From: an uncultured Coriobacteriaceae bacterium
GTDB taxonomy: Bacteria; Actinomycetota; Coriobacteriia; Coriobacteriales; Coriobacteriaceae
Length of the DNA stretch: 64,000 bases
Direction: 5' to 3'
NCBI GenBank assembly: GCA_944322305.1
Contig: CALUOP010000001.1
Location: forward strand, 1 to 64,000
In this document: positions 13,691 to 50,765 of the stretch, piece after piece
Position numbering within the stretch: the first letter of the stretch is position 1
How the letters are laid out: each line of letters starts with the position of its first letter
Program-made: the position numbers and the translations under genes
The notes under the pieces: model-generated
What the model saw: only the letters and a program-made list of their open reading frames with translations
Database searches by the model: none
What the model was told of the DNA's origin: nothing

Positions 13691-16650
13691 GGGATCATCC
13701 CCGCTGGCGCGGGGAGCACAGCGACCTGCGCGACATTAACAAGGCTCTGAAGGGATCACCCCCGCTGGTGCGGGGAGCACCAGCAGCAAGTCGCAGAGCC
13801 CCCCGGTGAGGGATCATCCCCGCTGGTGCGGGGAGCACACTTTGCCAGGAGCATCGCCGACACCTCCCCGGGGATCATCCCCGCTGGCGCGGGGAGCACC
13901 AGCATGGAGCCTACCGTTGAGACAGCAACCAGGGATCATCCCCGCTGACGCGGGGAGCACACGTTCGTACCCTTTGCCACCATGAGCTTGTAAGGATCAT
14001 CCCCGCTGACGCGGGGAGCACTACGTTCCGATCATCGCCGGTTACAACCTGATGGGATCATCCCCGCTGACGCGGGGAGCACCACGTTCACGTACATGTA
14101 TCCAAAGTACGACCGGGATCATCCCCGCTGACGCGGGGAGCACTTGCTTGCTATCTTCTGACCAGTCTCCGCATCGGGATCATCCCCGCTGACGCGGGGA
14201 GCACCTCGACGTTGCCTCAACCCCGGTGCTTTCGTTAGGGATCATCCCCGCTGACGCGGGGAGCACTGGAGCAAAGGCGAGTGCCTGCGCCGGTACTGCG
14301 GATCATCCCCGCTGACGCGGGGAGCACAGGCCCTCGCCCACGGTGCCGATGATCGGGTCGGGATCATCCCCGCTGGCGCGGGGAGCACAGGTTGTCTTCT
14401 CGGGCGGCGTGAAGGTACAGGGGATCATCCCCGCTGACGCGGGGAGCACCCCAGCTCCCAGAGCATGAAGGTGGCCCACGAGGGATCATCCCCGCTGACG
14501 CGGGGAGCACACGAGGCCATTATAGATCGCGAGCTTGACAAAGGGATCATCCCCGCTGACGCGGGGAGCACTGGGGCATCTGCGACCTTGCCAACCCCGA
14601 CACGGGATCATCCCCGCTGACGCGGGGAGCACGAGTTGTACACGCCTGCCATGTTGTAGTGGGTGGGATCATCCCCGCTGACGCGGGGAGCACGCGCCCA
14701 CGACGCGGACATTTACGACGATGACAGGATCATCCCCGCTGACGCGGGGAGCACGCTGCTTACGGCCAGGACAACCGCCATCGCGAGGGATCATCCCCGC
14801 TGACGCGGGGAGCACGATTCCTCAAGCTCCGTAAGGGACGAAATGGCGGGATCATCCCCGCTGACGCGGGGAGCACATCGTTCGTCTCCAACTCGTACGC
14901 GGTGTTCAGGGATCATCCCCGCTGACGCGGGGAGCACCAAAGGAAGGGAGTTTGAAATGGCAGACACGAGGGATCATCCCCGCTGACGCGGGGAGCACTG
15001 CTTCATCAGCAACTCGGGCGACCTGGCGAAGGGATCATCCCCGCTGACGCGGGGAGCACTACAAGGGAGGGTGGTGCTACGCAGACCCGAGGGGATCATC
15101 CCCGCTGACGCGGGGAGCACTTTTCCATTTGGTGCCCCTTTCTCTCTTGCTGGGGATCATCCCCGCTGACGCGGGGAGCACTGGCTTCGGCGCGTTTGGC
15201 GGCGGTGGGTGTGAGGATCATCCCCGCTGACGCGGGGAGCACAAGATGGGCGGCGGCACCGTCATATACAACACGGGATCATCCCCGCTGACGCGGGGAG
15301 CACTAATGAATTTCGTTACCGCTGTAGCGCCCGTCGGGATCATCCCCGCTGACGCGGGGAGCACGTTCTGCACGTTCTGAACGATGTTGGAGAACGCGGG
15401 ATCATCCCCGCTGACGCGGGGAGCACGTTCTGCACGTTCTGAGCGATGTTGGAGAACGCGGGATCATCCCCGCTGACGCGGGGAGCACGTTCTGCACGTT
15501 CTGAGCGATGTTGGAGAACGCGGGATCATCCCCGCTGACGCGGGGAGCACGCATGCGAGGGAGAGAGCGAGGTCAAGGTCAGGGGATCATCCCCGCTGAC
15601 GCGGGGAGCACCCGTTGTTTTTCATATACGTCACGTTCTCGAAGGGATCATCCCCGCTGACGCGGGGAGCACTCAACCTCGGCGTCGGTGTAGGGTCGGT
15701 CGCCGGGATCATCCCCGCTGACGCGGGGAGCACCCTGAGATACCGCCTGAACAACATTGCTGAAAGGGATCATCCCCGCTGACGCGGGGAGCACCAGTGC
15801 TTCTATCCTGACTGTCTACGTCGAATGGGATCATCCCCGCTGACGCGGGGAGCACCAGCCCTGGAAGGTCACAAGATGCTGCGGCTCGGGGATCATCCCC
15901 GCTGACGCGGGGAGCACGTTTTCAGCGCGGTTGGCGGCAAGGTAAACGAGGGATCATCCCCGCTGACGCGGGGAGCACTCGAGTACACGCAGACCATACC
16001 TATCGAAGGTGGGATCATCCCCGCTGACGCGGGGAGCACCACGAACTTCGACGTGGCTTCGCCGTACACCGGGGATCATCCCCGCTGACGCGGGGAGCAC
16101 CACGAACTTCGACGTGGCTTCGCCGTACACCGGGGATCATCCCCGCTGACGCGGGGAGCACTACAGCGGGCTATCTAGATAATTGCCCCGACGTGGGATC
16201 ATCCCCGCTGACGCGGGGAGCACAAGCAGCACGCTAACAAACGTGTTCCACGACGGGGATCATCCCCGCTGACGCGGGGAGCACTGGTCTGGTTCATGCC
16301 CTGCCCTTTCTCTTACGGGATCATCCCCGCTGACGCGGGGAGCACCGTAGTCGGTGACGTAACCTTCGAAAGCATCCGGGATCATCCCCGCTGACGCGGG
16401 GAGCACTCGCTGTTCACCGGCGCGACCGTGCAGGTGAAGGGATCATCCCCGCTGACGCGGGGAGCACAGGAGACGGTGAACCCTGAGACGGGCGAGGTTG
16501 GGATCATCCCCGCTGACGCGGGGAGCACCGGACGGGAACGGCGCGGCCCAGGAACTCCGCGGGATCATCCCCGCTGACGCGGGGAGCACCCGGTGACCGC
16601 GAGGCCCGTCACCACGCCGGTGGGATCATCCCCGCTGACGCGGGGAGCAC
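13691..16650 (-). CRISPR. Type I-E CRISPR array, 49 repeats / 48 spacers
   Basis: A 29-bp repeat with a CCCCGC...GCGGGG stem, ending GGGGAGCAC in the plus orientation, recurs with a 61-62 bp period; spacers are 32-33 nt. The transcribed strand is minus, in line with cas2-leader-array order. Repeats 1-4 (13691, 13752, 13810, 13871) carry GGCGC or GGTGC instead of GACGC; the second also has a T-to-C change, and the second spacer is only 29 nt. This marks the leader-distal, oldest end. The repeat at 14360 shares the GGCGC variant. Spacers at 15365, 15427 and 15489 are near-identical, and those at 16040 and 16101 identical. Confidence 0.99.
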
Positions 16651-44755: not shown

Positions 44756-46804
44756 ATGGATATGCAGGCGTTTTACCGCGGCGAGAGCTTCGACGCGCAC
44801 GAGTACTTCGGCGCCCACCTCGACAGCGCCCCTGGGCCGGACGGCACGCGCGGGGCAACCTTCCGCACCTTCGCGCCGGCCGCCGCGGGCGTGACGCTTC
44901 TGCTGGAGCGCGGCTGCGCGTGGAGCGACGGCATGTCCGACGCCGACGCGGGCGAGAAAAGCGCAGGCGCGTCCGACGCCGGCAGCGAAGCCGCAAGCGC
45001 CGGCCCCGCCCCGCGCGAGGTCCCCATGGCGCGCGCCTACGACGGCAACGTCTGGGAGGCGCGCGTGGACGACGTGCGCCCCGGCGACCCCTACGAGTTC
45101 CGCGTCCACCTGCCAGGCGGCGGCTACCAGGACCACGCCGACCCCTTCGCCTTCGGCTCCGACCTGCGCCCGCACCACCGCTCCATCGTGCGCGACCTCT
45201 CCTCGTGGCGCTTCGGCGACGCGGCGTGGATGGAGCAGCGCACCGCCTGCCTGGACAAGCCCCTCAACATCTACGAGCTGCACGCCGGCTCTTGGCGCAA
45301 GCCCCGCAACGACGAGGGCGAGGAGCGGCCCGACCTGTGGTACCGCTACGACGAGCTCGCCGAGCCGCTGATCGCCCACTGCAAGGAGGGCGGCTTCACC
45401 CACGTGGAGTTCCTGCCGCTCACCGAGCACCCGGCCGACGAGAGCTGGGGCTACCAACCCAGCGGGTTCTTCTCGCCCACCAGCCGCTGGGGCACGCCCG
45501 AGGAGCTCATGCAGCTGATTGACCGCCTGCACCAAGCCGGCATCGGCGCCATCCTCGACTTTGTGCCCGTGCACTTTGCCTGCGACGCCTGGGGCATGGC
45601 GCGCTACGACGGCACGGCGCTGTTCGAGTACCCCAACCAGGATGTTGGCCTGTCGGAGTGGGGCAGCATGAACTTCATGCACTCGCGCGGCGAGGTGCGC
45701 AGCCTTCTGCAGTCAGCCGCCAACCTGTGGCTTGGCACCTACCACTTCGACGGCCTGCGCATGGACGCCATCAGCCGCATCATCTACTGGCAGGGCGACG
45801 AGCGCCGCGGCGTGAACGGCAACGCCGTGAGCTTCATCCGCACCATGAACGAGGGGCTGCACCGCCTGAACCCCGGCTGCCTTTTGGCCGCCGAGGACTC
45901 CACCAACTACCCGGGCGTCACGCGGCCGGGCAGCCAGGGTGGGCTGGGCTTCGACTACAAGTGGGACATGGGCTGGATGCACGACACGCTCTCGCTGTTC
46001 CAGATGCCGCCCGACGAGCGGCGCGCCAACTACCACAAGCTCACGTTCTCGATGATGTACTACGCCAACGAGCACTACCTTCTGCCCTTCTCGCACGACG
46101 AGGTGGTGCACGGCAAGGCCACCGTCCTGCAGAAGATGAACGGCGGCTACGAGGGCAAGTTCCCCCAGGGGCGGGCGCTGTACCTGTACATGGCCGCCCA
46201 CCCGGGCAAGAAGCTCAACTTCATGGGCAGCGAGCTGGGGCAGCTGCGCGAGTGGGACGAGAAGCGCGAGCAGGACTGGCTGCTTTTGGGCTACCCGGTG
46301 CACGACGCGTTCTGGCGCTATATGCGCGCGCTCGGGCAGACCTACGTGGCGCACCCCGCCCTGTGGGAACGCGACTACCGCGAGGACGGCTTTGCCTGGC
46401 TCGACTGCCACGAGGAGCAGCGCCTGATCTACGCCTTCGAGCGGCGCGGGGGCGATGAGCGCCTGGCCTGCGTGCTGAACCTGGACAGCGTGGCGCAACA
46501 CTACCGCGTGGCGCTGCCGGGGCTTTCGGCCGAGAAGAGCGGCGCGGCTGGCGGCGGCGATGCGCGCACCGACGCGACGCAGGGCGAAACGCGGCGGGCC
46601 GCTAGCGCTGGCGGCGGACCTGCGGCGCCCGCAAGCGCCGCGGTGCGCAAGCCTGTGCGGCGCGCGGTGGGGACGCTGGTCTACACCGACTGGCAGCCGT
46701 TCGGCGGATCCACGCCCGAGGCCGACAACCCCTGCGTCCTTGAGGATGACAAGCTGGTGTGCCGCCTCGCGCCGTTCTCCGGCGTGCTGGTGAAGATCCC
46801 CTAG
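44756..46804 (+). CDS. glgB: 1,4-alpha-glucan (glycogen) branching enzyme
   Basis: 682-aa GH13 enzyme forming alpha-1,6 branches in glycogen. An N-terminal CBM48-like domain with YELHAGSWRKP, the SWGYQPSGFFSP block, DFVPVHF, the nucleophile segment DGLRMDAIS, acid/base AAEDSTNYPG and LPFSHDEVVHGK define it. Two Ala/Gly-rich low-complexity inserts (about 62-82 and 590-640) lie outside the catalytic barrel. No other glg genes are in the window. Confidence 0.94.
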   Translation: MDMQAFYRGESFDAHEYFGAHLDSAPGPDGTRGATFRTFAPAAAGVTLLLERGCAWSDGMSDADAGEKSAGASDAGSEAASAGPAPREVPMARAYDGNVWEARVDDVRPGDPYEFRVHLPGGGYQDHADPFAFGSDLRPHHRSIVRDLSSWRFGDAAWMEQRTACLDKPLNIYELHAGSWRKPRNDEGEERPDLWYRYDELAEPLIAHCKEGGFTHVEFLPLTEHPADESWGYQPSGFFSPTSRWGTPEELMQLIDRLHQAGIGAILDFVPVHFACDAWGMARYDGTALFEYPNQDVGLSEWGSMNFMHSRGEVRSLLQSAANLWLGTYHFDGLRMDAISRIIYWQGDERRGVNGNAVSFIRTMNEGLHRLNPGCLLAAEDSTNYPGVTRPGSQGGLGFDYKWDMGWMHDTLSLFQMPPDERRANYHKLTFSMMYYANEHYLLPFSHDEVVHGKATVLQKMNGGYEGKFPQGRALYLYMAAHPGKKLNFMGSELGQLREWDEKREQDWLLLGYPVHDAFWRYMRALGQTYVAHPALWERDYREDGFAWLDCHEEQRLIYAFERRGGDERLACVLNLDSVAQHYRVALPGLSAEKSGAAGGGDARTDATQGETRRAASAGGGPAAPASAAVRKPVRRAVGTLVYTDWQPFGGSTPEADNPCVLEDDKLVCRLAPFSGVLVKIP

Positions 46805-46957: not shown

Positions 46958-48808
46958 ATGACGCACCGCGCCGCGCACGTCCGCACCGACACGCCCGACC
47001 CCGCCGAGCCCGCGCCTGCAGGCGCGCCAAACACCGCCGCAGAGCCCGACGTGTTGGTGATCGGCGGCGGCATCGCCGGCACCATGGCCGCGCTCGCCGC
47101 CGCGCGCGCCGGCGCCGCAGTGGTTCTCGCCTGCGCGGGCACGCTCTTCTCGGGCTCGAGCTTCTACCCCGGCACCTGGGGGTTGGGCCTCGTGGGACCG
47201 GAGGACGAGGGTGACGAGGCAGAGCTCGCCGACACGATCTGCGCCATCGGCGGGGGCGCGGCCAACCGGGAGCTGGTGGAGAGCTTCGTAGCCGGCATCC
47301 GCCCGGCCATCGCCGAGCTCGAGGCGCTGGGCGTTGCGCTCAAGCGCCCAAAGAACGCCGACGACCAAACGTTCATCCCCTGCTTCGACCACAAGCACCG
47401 CCTGTGGCGCGGCATCACGCGCGAAAGCTACGAACAGGCAGTAGGCGCGGCGCTTGCGGCCGCCGGCGTGCGGGTGCTCGAGCGGCGCGAGCTCATGAAC
47501 CTTGTCGAGGTTGCGCCGACGGGCGAAGCGGCGGGTGCCGCGAGGGGCGCGGACGAGCGGCAGGCGGCAGGTGCGGTTCTCTACAACCGCGAAAACCAGC
47601 GCTTTGAGGAGGTGCGCGCGGGCGCGGTGGTGCTCGCCTGCGGCGGCTACGGCGGGCTCTTCGAGCGGCGCCTCACCGCCGCCGACGTGCTGGGGAGCGC
47701 GCAGGCGGTGGCCGCCGAGCACGGGTGCGGCCTCGTGAACCTGGAGTTCATGCAGATCATGCCGGCCATCGTCTCCCCACGGCGCGCGTGGGGCACCGTC
47801 TTCAACGAGAAAACCTGGCGCTACGCCCAGCTTGTCGACGACGCCGGCCGCGACGCGCTGACAGGCCCCGCCGCAGCTGAGGGGGTCTCCGTGGCAGAGC
47901 TGCTCGAGGCGCGCAGCGGCCACGGCCCCTTTTCCAGCCGGCTCGTCTCGCGCGCGGTGGACCTCGCCATCGACGCCGCCGGCGAGCGCGGCCTCACGGT
48001 ACGCTACCCCGGCGGACTCACAGGCGAGGGGGTGCCGGAGTTTGTTCGCGCCTTCAGCTCGTGGCTTGCGCAGGACAAGGGCGTGACCGGCGCCGACGAA
48101 CTGCGGGTGGCAGAGTTCGCGCACGCGGCAAACGGCGGCATCCGCATCGACGCGCAGGCCGCGACCGACCTGCCGGGGCTCTTCGCCTGCGGCGAGTGCA
48201 CGGGCGGCATGCACGGCGCCGACCGCCTGGGCGGACTCTCGAGCGCAAACGGCCTGGTGTTCGGCTTGCGCGCGGGACGCAGCGCCGCGGCATGGGTGCA
48301 GCGCGTGGGCGGCGCGAGCGGCCTAGGCTGCAAGGGGCATGGATCCGAGGGAATGCGCCGCGCCGACCGCGAAGCCCGCGTCGCCGATGCGGGCAAGCCG
48401 CACGAGGCGCCGCCCGCGCTGACGGACGAGCAGGCAAAGCAAAGCCGCGAGGAGGTGCGCACGCTGGCTGCCAAGCTGCGCCGCCGCATGAGCGCCTCGT
48501 GCATGGTGAGGCGCACCGCGGCGGGGCTCACGGGCGCGCTGGAAGAGATTGAGCAGCTTGAGGAGCGCCGCGCCGCGGTTGCCGAGGCGCTGAGGCAGGG
48601 CGCGCTTGAGAACAATGAGGCTGCGGGCGCAAAGGGCAACAGCCCCCGCGCAGACGCGGGCCCTTGGCTTGCCGCGCGCGGTGACGCAGCCGAGCTTCTC
48701 GCCAGCCTGCGCCGGCTCGAGCTGCAGCTTGCGCTCGCGCGAAGGATCGCGCAGGCGGCGCTGGCGCGCACCGAGAGCTGCGGGTCGCACTACCGCGCCG
48801 ACGCCTGA
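46958..48808 (+). CDS. FAD-dependent oxidoreductase (L-aspartate oxidase / fumarate reductase flavoprotein-like)
   Basis: 616-aa flavoprotein. VLVIGGGIAGTMAALAAARAG (about 30-50) is the FAD-binding Rossmann motif. The second FAD segment CGECTGGMHGADRLGG and SSANGLVFG match the succinate dehydrogenase/fumarate reductase/NadB family. A helical C-terminal domain ends ESCGSHYRADA. The residue pattern leans to NadB-like, but nadA and nadC are not adjacent, and the protein is longer than the usual 530 aa with Ala-rich inserts. Function is therefore left open. Confidence 0.75.
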   Translation: MTHRAAHVRTDTPDPAEPAPAGAPNTAAEPDVLVIGGGIAGTMAALAAARAGAAVVLACAGTLFSGSSFYPGTWGLGLVGPEDEGDEAELADTICAIGGGAANRELVESFVAGIRPAIAELEALGVALKRPKNADDQTFIPCFDHKHRLWRGITRESYEQAVGAALAAAGVRVLERRELMNLVEVAPTGEAAGAARGADERQAAGAVLYNRENQRFEEVRAGAVVLACGGYGGLFERRLTAADVLGSAQAVAAEHGCGLVNLEFMQIMPAIVSPRRAWGTVFNEKTWRYAQLVDDAGRDALTGPAAAEGVSVAELLEARSGHGPFSSRLVSRAVDLAIDAAGERGLTVRYPGGLTGEGVPEFVRAFSSWLAQDKGVTGADELRVAEFAHAANGGIRIDAQAATDLPGLFACGECTGGMHGADRLGGLSSANGLVFGLRAGRSAAAWVQRVGGASGLGCKGHGSEGMRRADREARVADAGKPHEAPPALTDEQAKQSREEVRTLAAKLRRRMSASCMVRRTAAGLTGALEEIEQLEERRAAVAEALRQGALENNEAAGAKGNSPRADAGPWLAARGDAAELLASLRRLELQLALARRIAQAALARTESCGSHYRADA

Positions 48809-48965: not shown

Positions 48966-50765
48966 ATGGCCAACAACATCACCGCACCCGATCGCGGCAT
49001 CCGCTCCCCCATCTCGCGACGCGCGCTTCTCACCTTGCCCGGAACGCTCGCGCTGGCGCTCGCCGGCTGCAGCAACGTCGACGAGCCCGAGAGCTCCGGC
49101 AGCGAACCGGCCGACGCCGATGCCGCAACCTCCACGGTGGAGCTTACGGCGGACTTCGAGCGCACCGCGCCGGCCGTTGACGGCGCGGTCCTCTCGCAAC
49201 ACAGCGCAGAGGCCGCCGCCTTTGCCGTGCGCCTGTTGCAGGCAGAGCTGGGTCTCGAGCCGGCGCCGGTTGAGGAGGCGGAAGACGAAGCCGAGGCGGA
49301 TGCGGCGACAGCGGCGGCCGAAACCGGCACCGATGCCGATCCGGCCACCAGCGCAACCGACCCGGACGCGCCGATCACCAGCAGCGTTGATCCCGACGCG
49401 CCCGCGACCAGCTCCGTTGACCCGGAGGCCCCCGCGACCAGCTCTGTTGACCCGGAGGCGCCGGCCACCGGCACGGCCGACCCGGAAGCCCCCGCAACCA
49501 GCAGCACCGACCCGGAGGCGCCGGCCACCGGCACGGCCGACCCGGAAGCCCCCGCAACCAGCAGCACCGACCCAGACGCCCCGGCAGCACGCAACCTGCT
49601 GGTCTCCCCGCTCTCGCTTCTGCGGGCGCTCGGCTTGGTGGTCCTGGGCGCAGAGGGCGACACGCTCGCCCAGATCGAGGACGCCCTGGGGATGGAGCGC
49701 GACGCGCTTGTCGCCTACTTGGTTGCCTGCGCGCGCACCTTGGACATCGACCCACAGACGCTTGCCGCACAGGACAACACCTGGATTGACAGCCCGCTTG
49801 CCGAAAGCGCCCCCGCCGGAAGCGACGCCGAGAAAGAGGCCGCGAACGCCGACGAAGACGAGGACACGGCCCCCGAGACCACGCTCGAGGTGGCGGAGTC
49901 GCTCTGGATTAAAGACGAGCCGGCGCTCTCCGTTGAGGACGACTATCTCCAGGCGTGCGTGGACGACTTCGACGCGCAGGTGTTCTCGGGACCCTTTGAC
50001 GCGCAGACCTGCGCCGACCTCAACGCCTGGGTATCCGATAAAACTGCGAGCCGCATCCCGAAGCTCTTGGACGAGCTGCCGGCCGATGCTGTTCTCTACC
50101 TGGTAGACGCCTTGGCCTTCAGCGGCGCCTGGACCGAGCCCTACGAGGACGCCGACGTGGAGGACCACACCTTTACCTGCGAGGACGGCACCGAGCAGCC
50201 CATGGAGCTCATGCGCTCGACCGAGAACAGCTTTCTCACGCTGAGCGGTGCGCGCGGCTTTGTGAAGCCCTATGCGGGCAAGCGGTTCGCCTTCTGCGCC
50301 CTGCTGCCCAGCGAGGGCACCGCGCTCAGCTCGCTTGTTGCCCAGCTCACCGGCAATAAGCTCGCCGACGCCGTGGCAAGCGCCGAGGCAGGCAAGGTCG
50401 AGGCAGGCATACCGCGCTTCACCGTCCGATGCCGCACCGAGCTCACCGAGGCGCTCGGCAAGCTCGGCGTGACAGACCTGTTCGACCCGACGCTCGCGGA
50501 CCTTGCGGGCATCGGCGCCATGGACGACGGCGCCGGCCTCGCCGTGAGCCAGGTGCTGCAGGAGACCTTCGTCAACGTGGACGAGCAGGGCACCGAGGCA
50601 GCCGCCGCCACCGCGCTCGGCGTCTCGGCTGCCTCGGCCGCGCCGGAAGAGGAGCCTGAGCAGGTGATTCTCGACCGGCCCTTTGTCTACTTCATCTGGG
50701 ACACGCAGACCGCCGCACCCGTCTTTGCCGGCACGCTCGCCAGCATGGAGGGCCTGGAGGGGTAA
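48966..50765 (+). CDS. Serpin-family lipoprotein with decapeptide repeat insert
   Basis: 599-aa protein. A Tat-like SRRALL (18-23) and lipobox LAGC (Cys35) predict a lipid-anchored surface protein. Serpin blocks follow: FAVRLLQAEL, NLLVSPLSLLRALGLVVLGA, LYLVDALAFSGAW and, near the end, the hinge EQGTEAAAATAL (about 540-551) typical of inhibitory serpins, then DRPFVYFIWD. Between helix A and the NLLVSP strand it carries eight units of DPEAPATSST type (residues 131-207) plus a second acidic insert (about 270-290). Likely a covalent inhibitor of serine or cysteine proteases. The ATG follows AAGGAGG. Confidence 0.88.
   Translation: MANNITAPDRGIRSPISRRALLTLPGTLALALAGCSNVDEPESSGSEPADADAATSTVELTADFERTAPAVDGAVLSQHSAEAAAFAVRLLQAELGLEPAPVEEAEDEAEADAATAAAETGTDADPATSATDPDAPITSSVDPDAPATSSVDPEAPATSSVDPEAPATGTADPEAPATSSTDPEAPATGTADPEAPATSSTDPDAPAARNLLVSPLSLLRALGLVVLGAEGDTLAQIEDALGMERDALVAYLVACARTLDIDPQTLAAQDNTWIDSPLAESAPAGSDAEKEAANADEDEDTAPETTLEVAESLWIKDEPALSVEDDYLQACVDDFDAQVFSGPFDAQTCADLNAWVSDKTASRIPKLLDELPADAVLYLVDALAFSGAWTEPYEDADVEDHTFTCEDGTEQPMELMRSTENSFLTLSGARGFVKPYAGKRFAFCALLPSEGTALSSLVAQLTGNKLADAVASAEAGKVEAGIPRFTVRCRTELTEALGKLGVTDLFDPTLADLAGIGAMDDGAGLAVSQVLQETFVNVDEQGTEAAAATALGVSAASAAPEEEPEQVILDRPFVYFIWDTQTAAPVFAGTLASMEGLEG
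49356..49586 (+). repeat. Tandem 30-bp repeats inside the serpin gene
   Basis: Eight in-frame 30-bp units encode DP(E/D)APAT(S/G)(S/T)x. Units 4-5 and 6-7 form nearly identical 60-bp copies, indicating recent duplication and probable length variation. Confidence 0.9.

Follow-up and report, generated by a model that had tools for sequence, protein, structure and literature searches.

What does an array of proline-rich decapeptides do inside the fold of a serpin? The question is raised by a gene at positions 48966-50765 (+) of the window, by which we mean the whole 64,000-nucleotide stretch of DNA from an uncultured Coriobacteriaceae bacterium that was analysed here. The reading towards which we lean, with slightly better than even confidence, is that the product is a membrane-anchored serpin of the inhibitory type whose loop between helix A and strand s6B has become a disordered repeat bristle without breaking the fold.

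The serpin gene, its export signal and its reactive loop

The reading frame given in the initial annotation is correct. It opens with an ATG preceded by AAGGAGG, and a Pfam scan of the 599-residue product detected one family, Serpin (PF00079, E 7.1e-69, 233 bits), the match spanning profile positions 19-368 of 370, which establishes its family membership. This protein is the sole serpin of its own genome. A scan for sigma-70 promoters found none.

The lipid anchor that had been proposed for this protein has its signal in the sequence. A twin-arginine motif (SRRALL, with the pair Arg18-Arg19 at 49017-49022, +) and a lipobox-like LALALAGC with Cys35 (49068-49070, +) are present at the N-terminus, and TatC is encoded in the genome (E 3.9e-58). 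From these features we infer that the serpin is probably exported via a Tat-like lipoprotein signal and lipidated at Cys35, and hence would be anchored in the membrane. A lipobox-like motif was found in 69 of the 91 serpin rows of the order sample. The N-terminal linker also contains an ELTA motif (49140-49151, +); [D/E/N/S]L[T/M/S]A-like motifs recur between the lipobox and helix A in 43 of these 91 rows, as counted with a loose pattern, and could represent a tengpin-like stabilising segment.

The designation as an inhibitory-type serpin is likewise supported by the hinge of the reactive loop (P17-P9, residues 540-548, 50583-50609, +), which reads EQGTEAAAA and agrees with the inhibitory form ExGTEAAAA. 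In the consensus as worded in PMC8233489, x is E, K or R, and the Gln at P16 of the window serpin falls outside these three residues. The hinge is intact and conserved within the genus. By counting from hinge residue P15, P1-P1' is predicted at Ala556-Ser557 (50631-50636, +), a placement that is uncertain because the reactive loop is approximately five residues longer than that of alpha-1-antitrypsin; Ala-Ser occupies the predicted place in all four genus members. Such a pair at P1-P1' suggests elastase- or subtilisin-like proteases as targets. The long reactive loop would also suit a non-inhibitory serpin or a decoy substrate, and inhibition by the window serpin is itself a prediction; against this stands the intact, genus-conserved hinge, and we consider such a role very improbable. 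In the mechanism that we propose instead, the serpin would be exported by its lipoprotein signal and held at the outer face of the membrane, where a visiting protease with a preference for small residues (elastase- or subtilisin-like) would cut the reactive loop at the cell envelope and be trapped by the usual loop-insertion mechanism of serpins.

The repeat array and its distribution among relatives

In an alignment of 91 order-sample serpin rows (94 reading frames were kept, of which two duplicates and L052_9, which does not have the region, were dropped), an insert of 116 residues (94-209) separates helix A from strand s6B. Both this alignment and the structural model described below place the repeat inside the fold, after helix A and before the NLLVSP strand, rather than in the N-terminal linker, as the initial annotation had it. 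The array makes up only part of the insert: a non-repeat, acidic Ala/Glu-rich spacer of approximately 35 residues (97-131, 49254-49358, +), poorly conserved in the sister species G001 and modelled mostly with pLDDT <50, precedes the units. The tandem array (49359-49592, +) contains the eight DPEAPAT-type units that had been counted before, in the form of DP[DE]AP units that start every 30 bp, the first at 49359 and the last at 49569. Units 1-7 are full decapeptides, and the truncated eighth, DPDAPAAR, runs straight into NLLVSPLS (49593-49616, +), which by alignment comprises strand s6B and the start of helix B and in which the model has a strand at residues 211-213.

One 60-bp duplication, of the kind reported earlier, is exact, units 4-5 (49449-49508, +) being identical in DNA to units 6-7 (49509-49568, +; 30/30 and 30/30), and the longest exact repeat in the array is 65 bp, with copies at 49449 and 49509. 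This duplication looks recent. The periodicity far exceeds that of shuffled sequences, with 57 of 102 insert residues matching at lag 10 (shuffled mean 15.8, maximum 33 in 10,000 shuffles) and 176 of 276 insert nucleotides matching at lag 60 (maximum 116 in 2,000 shuffles). When the repeat was searched against the proteins of its own genome, significant matches (E 2e-8 or better) were confined to the serpin gene. As a DNA pattern it gave matches in the same genome that, outside the array, all had two mismatches, the total being smaller than that of the reversed control, and it was absent from viral contigs. A match in L005 (Myxococcales), obtained in the contig scan with a single protein, covers only the repeat-like residues 129-173 and was therefore discarded as low-complexity similarity. 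A PMT-family enzyme that would O-mannosylate the Thr/Ser-rich units was also considered; the idea is unsupported, since the genome has no PF02366 match.

Serpins are present in all four genomes of the genus and in 23 of 65 genomes of the family; in the order and phylum samples the counts are 112 of 395 and 64 of 396 genomes, respectively. In 88 of the 91 order-sample rows, the helix A-s6B loop has 5-21 residues (11-21 in several serpins), the exceptions being the window serpin (116), that of G001 (78) and that of L075, a member of another family (40). Approximately 25 match rows of the order sample lie outside the alignment, and those of them that span helix A have no room for a large insert. 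In the phylum sample, the loop has 4-15 residues in each of the 41 new rows; the 55 rows of that sample also include 13 reference rows and one without the region, with part-matches only partly included. The repeat occurs in two of 64 family genomes, namely in the serpins of the window species (G000) and G001. At the species level, with one genome per species, the unit count is eight in the window species, five in G001 and zero in both G002 and G003, whose helix A-s6B loops have ten residues. A second low-complexity insert, acidic and situated before strand s2A (49770-49874, +, with approximate borders taken from the alignment), is longer in G002 and G003 and shorter in G001; it is modelled mostly with low pLDDT (model residues 209-242).

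The gene order GlgB, FAD-binding protein, serpin, aldo/keto reductase and coiled-coil protein is also found in G001 and G003 and, in part, in G002, whose contig is short, and on account of this conservation we take the four genus serpins to be orthologues at one place. The expansion predates the split of G000 and G001, i.e., it began in the ancestor of the two sister species. In that ancestor a short permissive loop would have given way to a Pro/Ala/Thr loop that is acidic and disordered and may still be lengthening by 30- and 60-bp duplications. Serpins were found in 20 of 72,556 plasmid records and in two of 50,697 phage records, all of them with <60% identity and none covering 80% of the query. 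Given these distant serpins and the conserved gene order, vertical descent is preferred and a horizontal origin was rejected.

Two side observations concern mobile elements and the rest of the window. The unannotated 'Bacteriophage sp.' records MT835777.1 and MT835510.1, both from human faeces, encode serpins, the former at two places. The window also carries a CRISPR-like array at 13752-16650 (unit GGATCATCCCCGCTGACGCGGGGAGCAC, period approximately 61), within which two stretches, 16011-16161 (100% alike) and 15270-15551 (90%), resemble duplicated spacers.

Constraint on the repeat and predicted shape of the loop

By simple Nei-Gojobori counts, the serpin cores of G000 and G001 give a dN/dS of 0.296 and those of G002 and G003 one of 0.208. 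Within the repeat, eleven units provide nine distinct seven-codon blocks, in which variation affects every one of the seven third positions but only two of the 14 others (hypergeometric P 3e-4), a contrast that GC-rich codon usage may inflate. Both of the varying non-third positions belong to a single Ala-to-Ile change in unit 1. It follows from this contrast that the DPxAPAT peptide was held while its codons drifted, and the position pattern argues for selection on DPxAPAT.

The main rival is that the array is a tolerated low-complexity expansion, in which a permissive loop in an insert-prone genome acquired a repeat without a function of its own. This account stays serious because the neighbouring enzymes, which are of cytosolic type, carry species-specific low-complexity inserts, those of the adjoining GlgB-like enzyme (44756-46801) and FAD-binding protein (46958-48805) differing among the window species, G001 and G003, and the genome seems prone to such inserts. 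The same place in the fold has also received material elsewhere: the L075 serpin (202-1578, -) carries an unrelated, independent low-complexity insert of 40 residues there, and several other loops, as given above, have 11-21 residues. The non-repeat part of the insert, moreover, diverges freely between the window species and G001. We take residue Asn46 of alpha-1-antitrypsin to fall in the helix A-s6B loop. Its glycosylation (PMC7731214) would mean that the place tolerates bulk. Unlike the inserts of the neighbours, however, the DPxAPAT block has been held at the protein level despite codon drift, and we regard a tolerated expansion as possible rather than probable. A further proposal is that selection keeps the DPxAPAT unit while 30- and 60-bp duplications change its copy number, the loop being tunable in length and copy number governing either how accessible the anchored inhibitor is or how long its metastable state lasts; if true, the serpin would carry a repeat-number dial, and we think it rather unlikely.

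For the shape of the loop, an AlphaFold2 model of residues 61-599 was used, which was built with an alignment of five remote serpins from viral contigs. These came from scans with queries A2 and A3, which returned a few remote serpins, whereas a scan of viral contigs with query A1 returned none. The alignment was trimmed to start at s6B, so that helix A and the insert were modelled unguided by it, and the placement of helix A is without evolutionary support there. This shallow-alignment model has a pLDDT of 69 and a pTM of 0.70. Helix A lies at model residues 13-34 (protein residues 73-94, 49182-49247, +) with pLDDT 69-90, the insert is mostly <50 and the core mostly at 74-94. A single-sequence AlphaFold2 run on the whole protein reached a pLDDT of only 37.6, and no structural inference was drawn from it.

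In a fold search with the model, native-state tengpin ranked first among solved structures (Z 43.8, rmsd 2.3, 367 residues aligned, model residues 6-534), followed by miropin (Z 41.2), with alpha-1-antitrypsin entries at about 39-40; the predicted fold is that of a serpin. Alignments to solved serpins begin at model residues 3-19 in 50 of the 50 matches listed, and helix A (13-34) therefore sits at the place of helix A in solved serpins, its docking being read from alignment end points rather than from a direct view of the coordinates. The model predicts that the serpin fold is kept, with helix A docked and the insert as a disordered loop. Structure prediction had been suggested as a check on whether the insert loops out, and in the model it does so while leaving the predicted fold undisrupted.

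The same model speaks against the term 'stalk', which we do not retain from the initial annotation. The repeat follows helix A, and the insert appears as a loop; with each of its ends tied to a docked element of the fold, it could not extend a tether and would therefore not be a stalk. The tether is, according to the model, the N-terminal linker (residues 36-72) that precedes helix A. A true stalk would require helix A to stay with the anchor, either undocked or docked in another molecule, the repeat then extending the serpin from the membrane. The order of the parts would permit this, since the insert separates the anchor and helix A from the remaining serpin, but the model docks helix A in cis, as the starting points of the alignments indicate, and we give this arrangement hardly any credence.

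In the bristle reading that we favour, the loop would instead bulge outward and leave the fold intact, and this hydrophilic, hard-to-cleave, proline-rich bristle would shield or space the anchored inhibitor and thereby alter access to it. The locus provides a natural site in the serpin fold that tolerates >100 extra residues, and its counterparts at the same place in G002 and G003, members of the same genus, serve as an unexpanded control; the contrast constitutes a clean natural experiment on loading a metastable fold.

Comparison with known serpins

The Group T bacterial serpins include tengpin, miropin and the siropins. The siropins and the Bifidobacterium longum serpin are serpins of gut commensals that inhibit elastase-like proteases; they were compared by description only, and the portions of the two reports consulted mention no repeat insert (PMC5127057, PMC8201313). 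In the open-licence literature that was searched, we found no account of tandem repeats in serpins or of extra sequence inserted between helix A and s6B. A large serpin phylogeny of 2021 (PMC8233489) removed insertions as well as sequences whose length departed from the median by >25% in either direction; serpins with long inserts would therefore be easily missed and are probably absent from it.

PAI-2, with its 66-98 loop, and MENT resemble the window serpin in having a long loop within the serpin fold; they differ in that another loop than helix A-s6B is involved and in that it does not consist of tandem repeats. The 66-98 loop of PAI-2 is its helix C-D loop. Judging by the titles of entries 2arq and 1jrr, PAI-2 was crystallised with loop 66-98 deleted.

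Miropin of Tannerella forsythia (5ncs) is, like the window protein, a bacterial serpin of the inhibitory type; it is the second bacterial serpin by sequence and, as noted above, a close fold match, and it inhibits elastase- and subtilisin-like proteases (PMC8201313). It differs in that its aligned chain of 375 residues has no such insert.

Tengpin of Thermoanaerobacter tengcongensis (2pee, 2pef, 2vh4), the closest solved relative, gives rise to one more reading, namely that the appendage beside helix A might, by analogy with the tengpin tail and with vitronectin on PAI-1, which act at a shared patch, tune the native-to-latent transition. The 51-residue N-terminal segment of tengpin prevents latency (PMC12702362, PMC8233489). 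It is, however, the N-terminal tail that acts in tengpin and not the helix A-s6B loop, and the insert studied here is modelled as disordered and has no hydrophobic docking segment, so that we judge control of metastability to be improbable. Tengpin resembles the window serpin as a bacterial serpin with a long N-terminal segment, being both the best solved sequence match (E 1.5e-139 with the family profile) and the top fold match, and it differs in precisely the loop at issue, its helix A-s6B connection being five residues shorter than the family profile and repeat-free.
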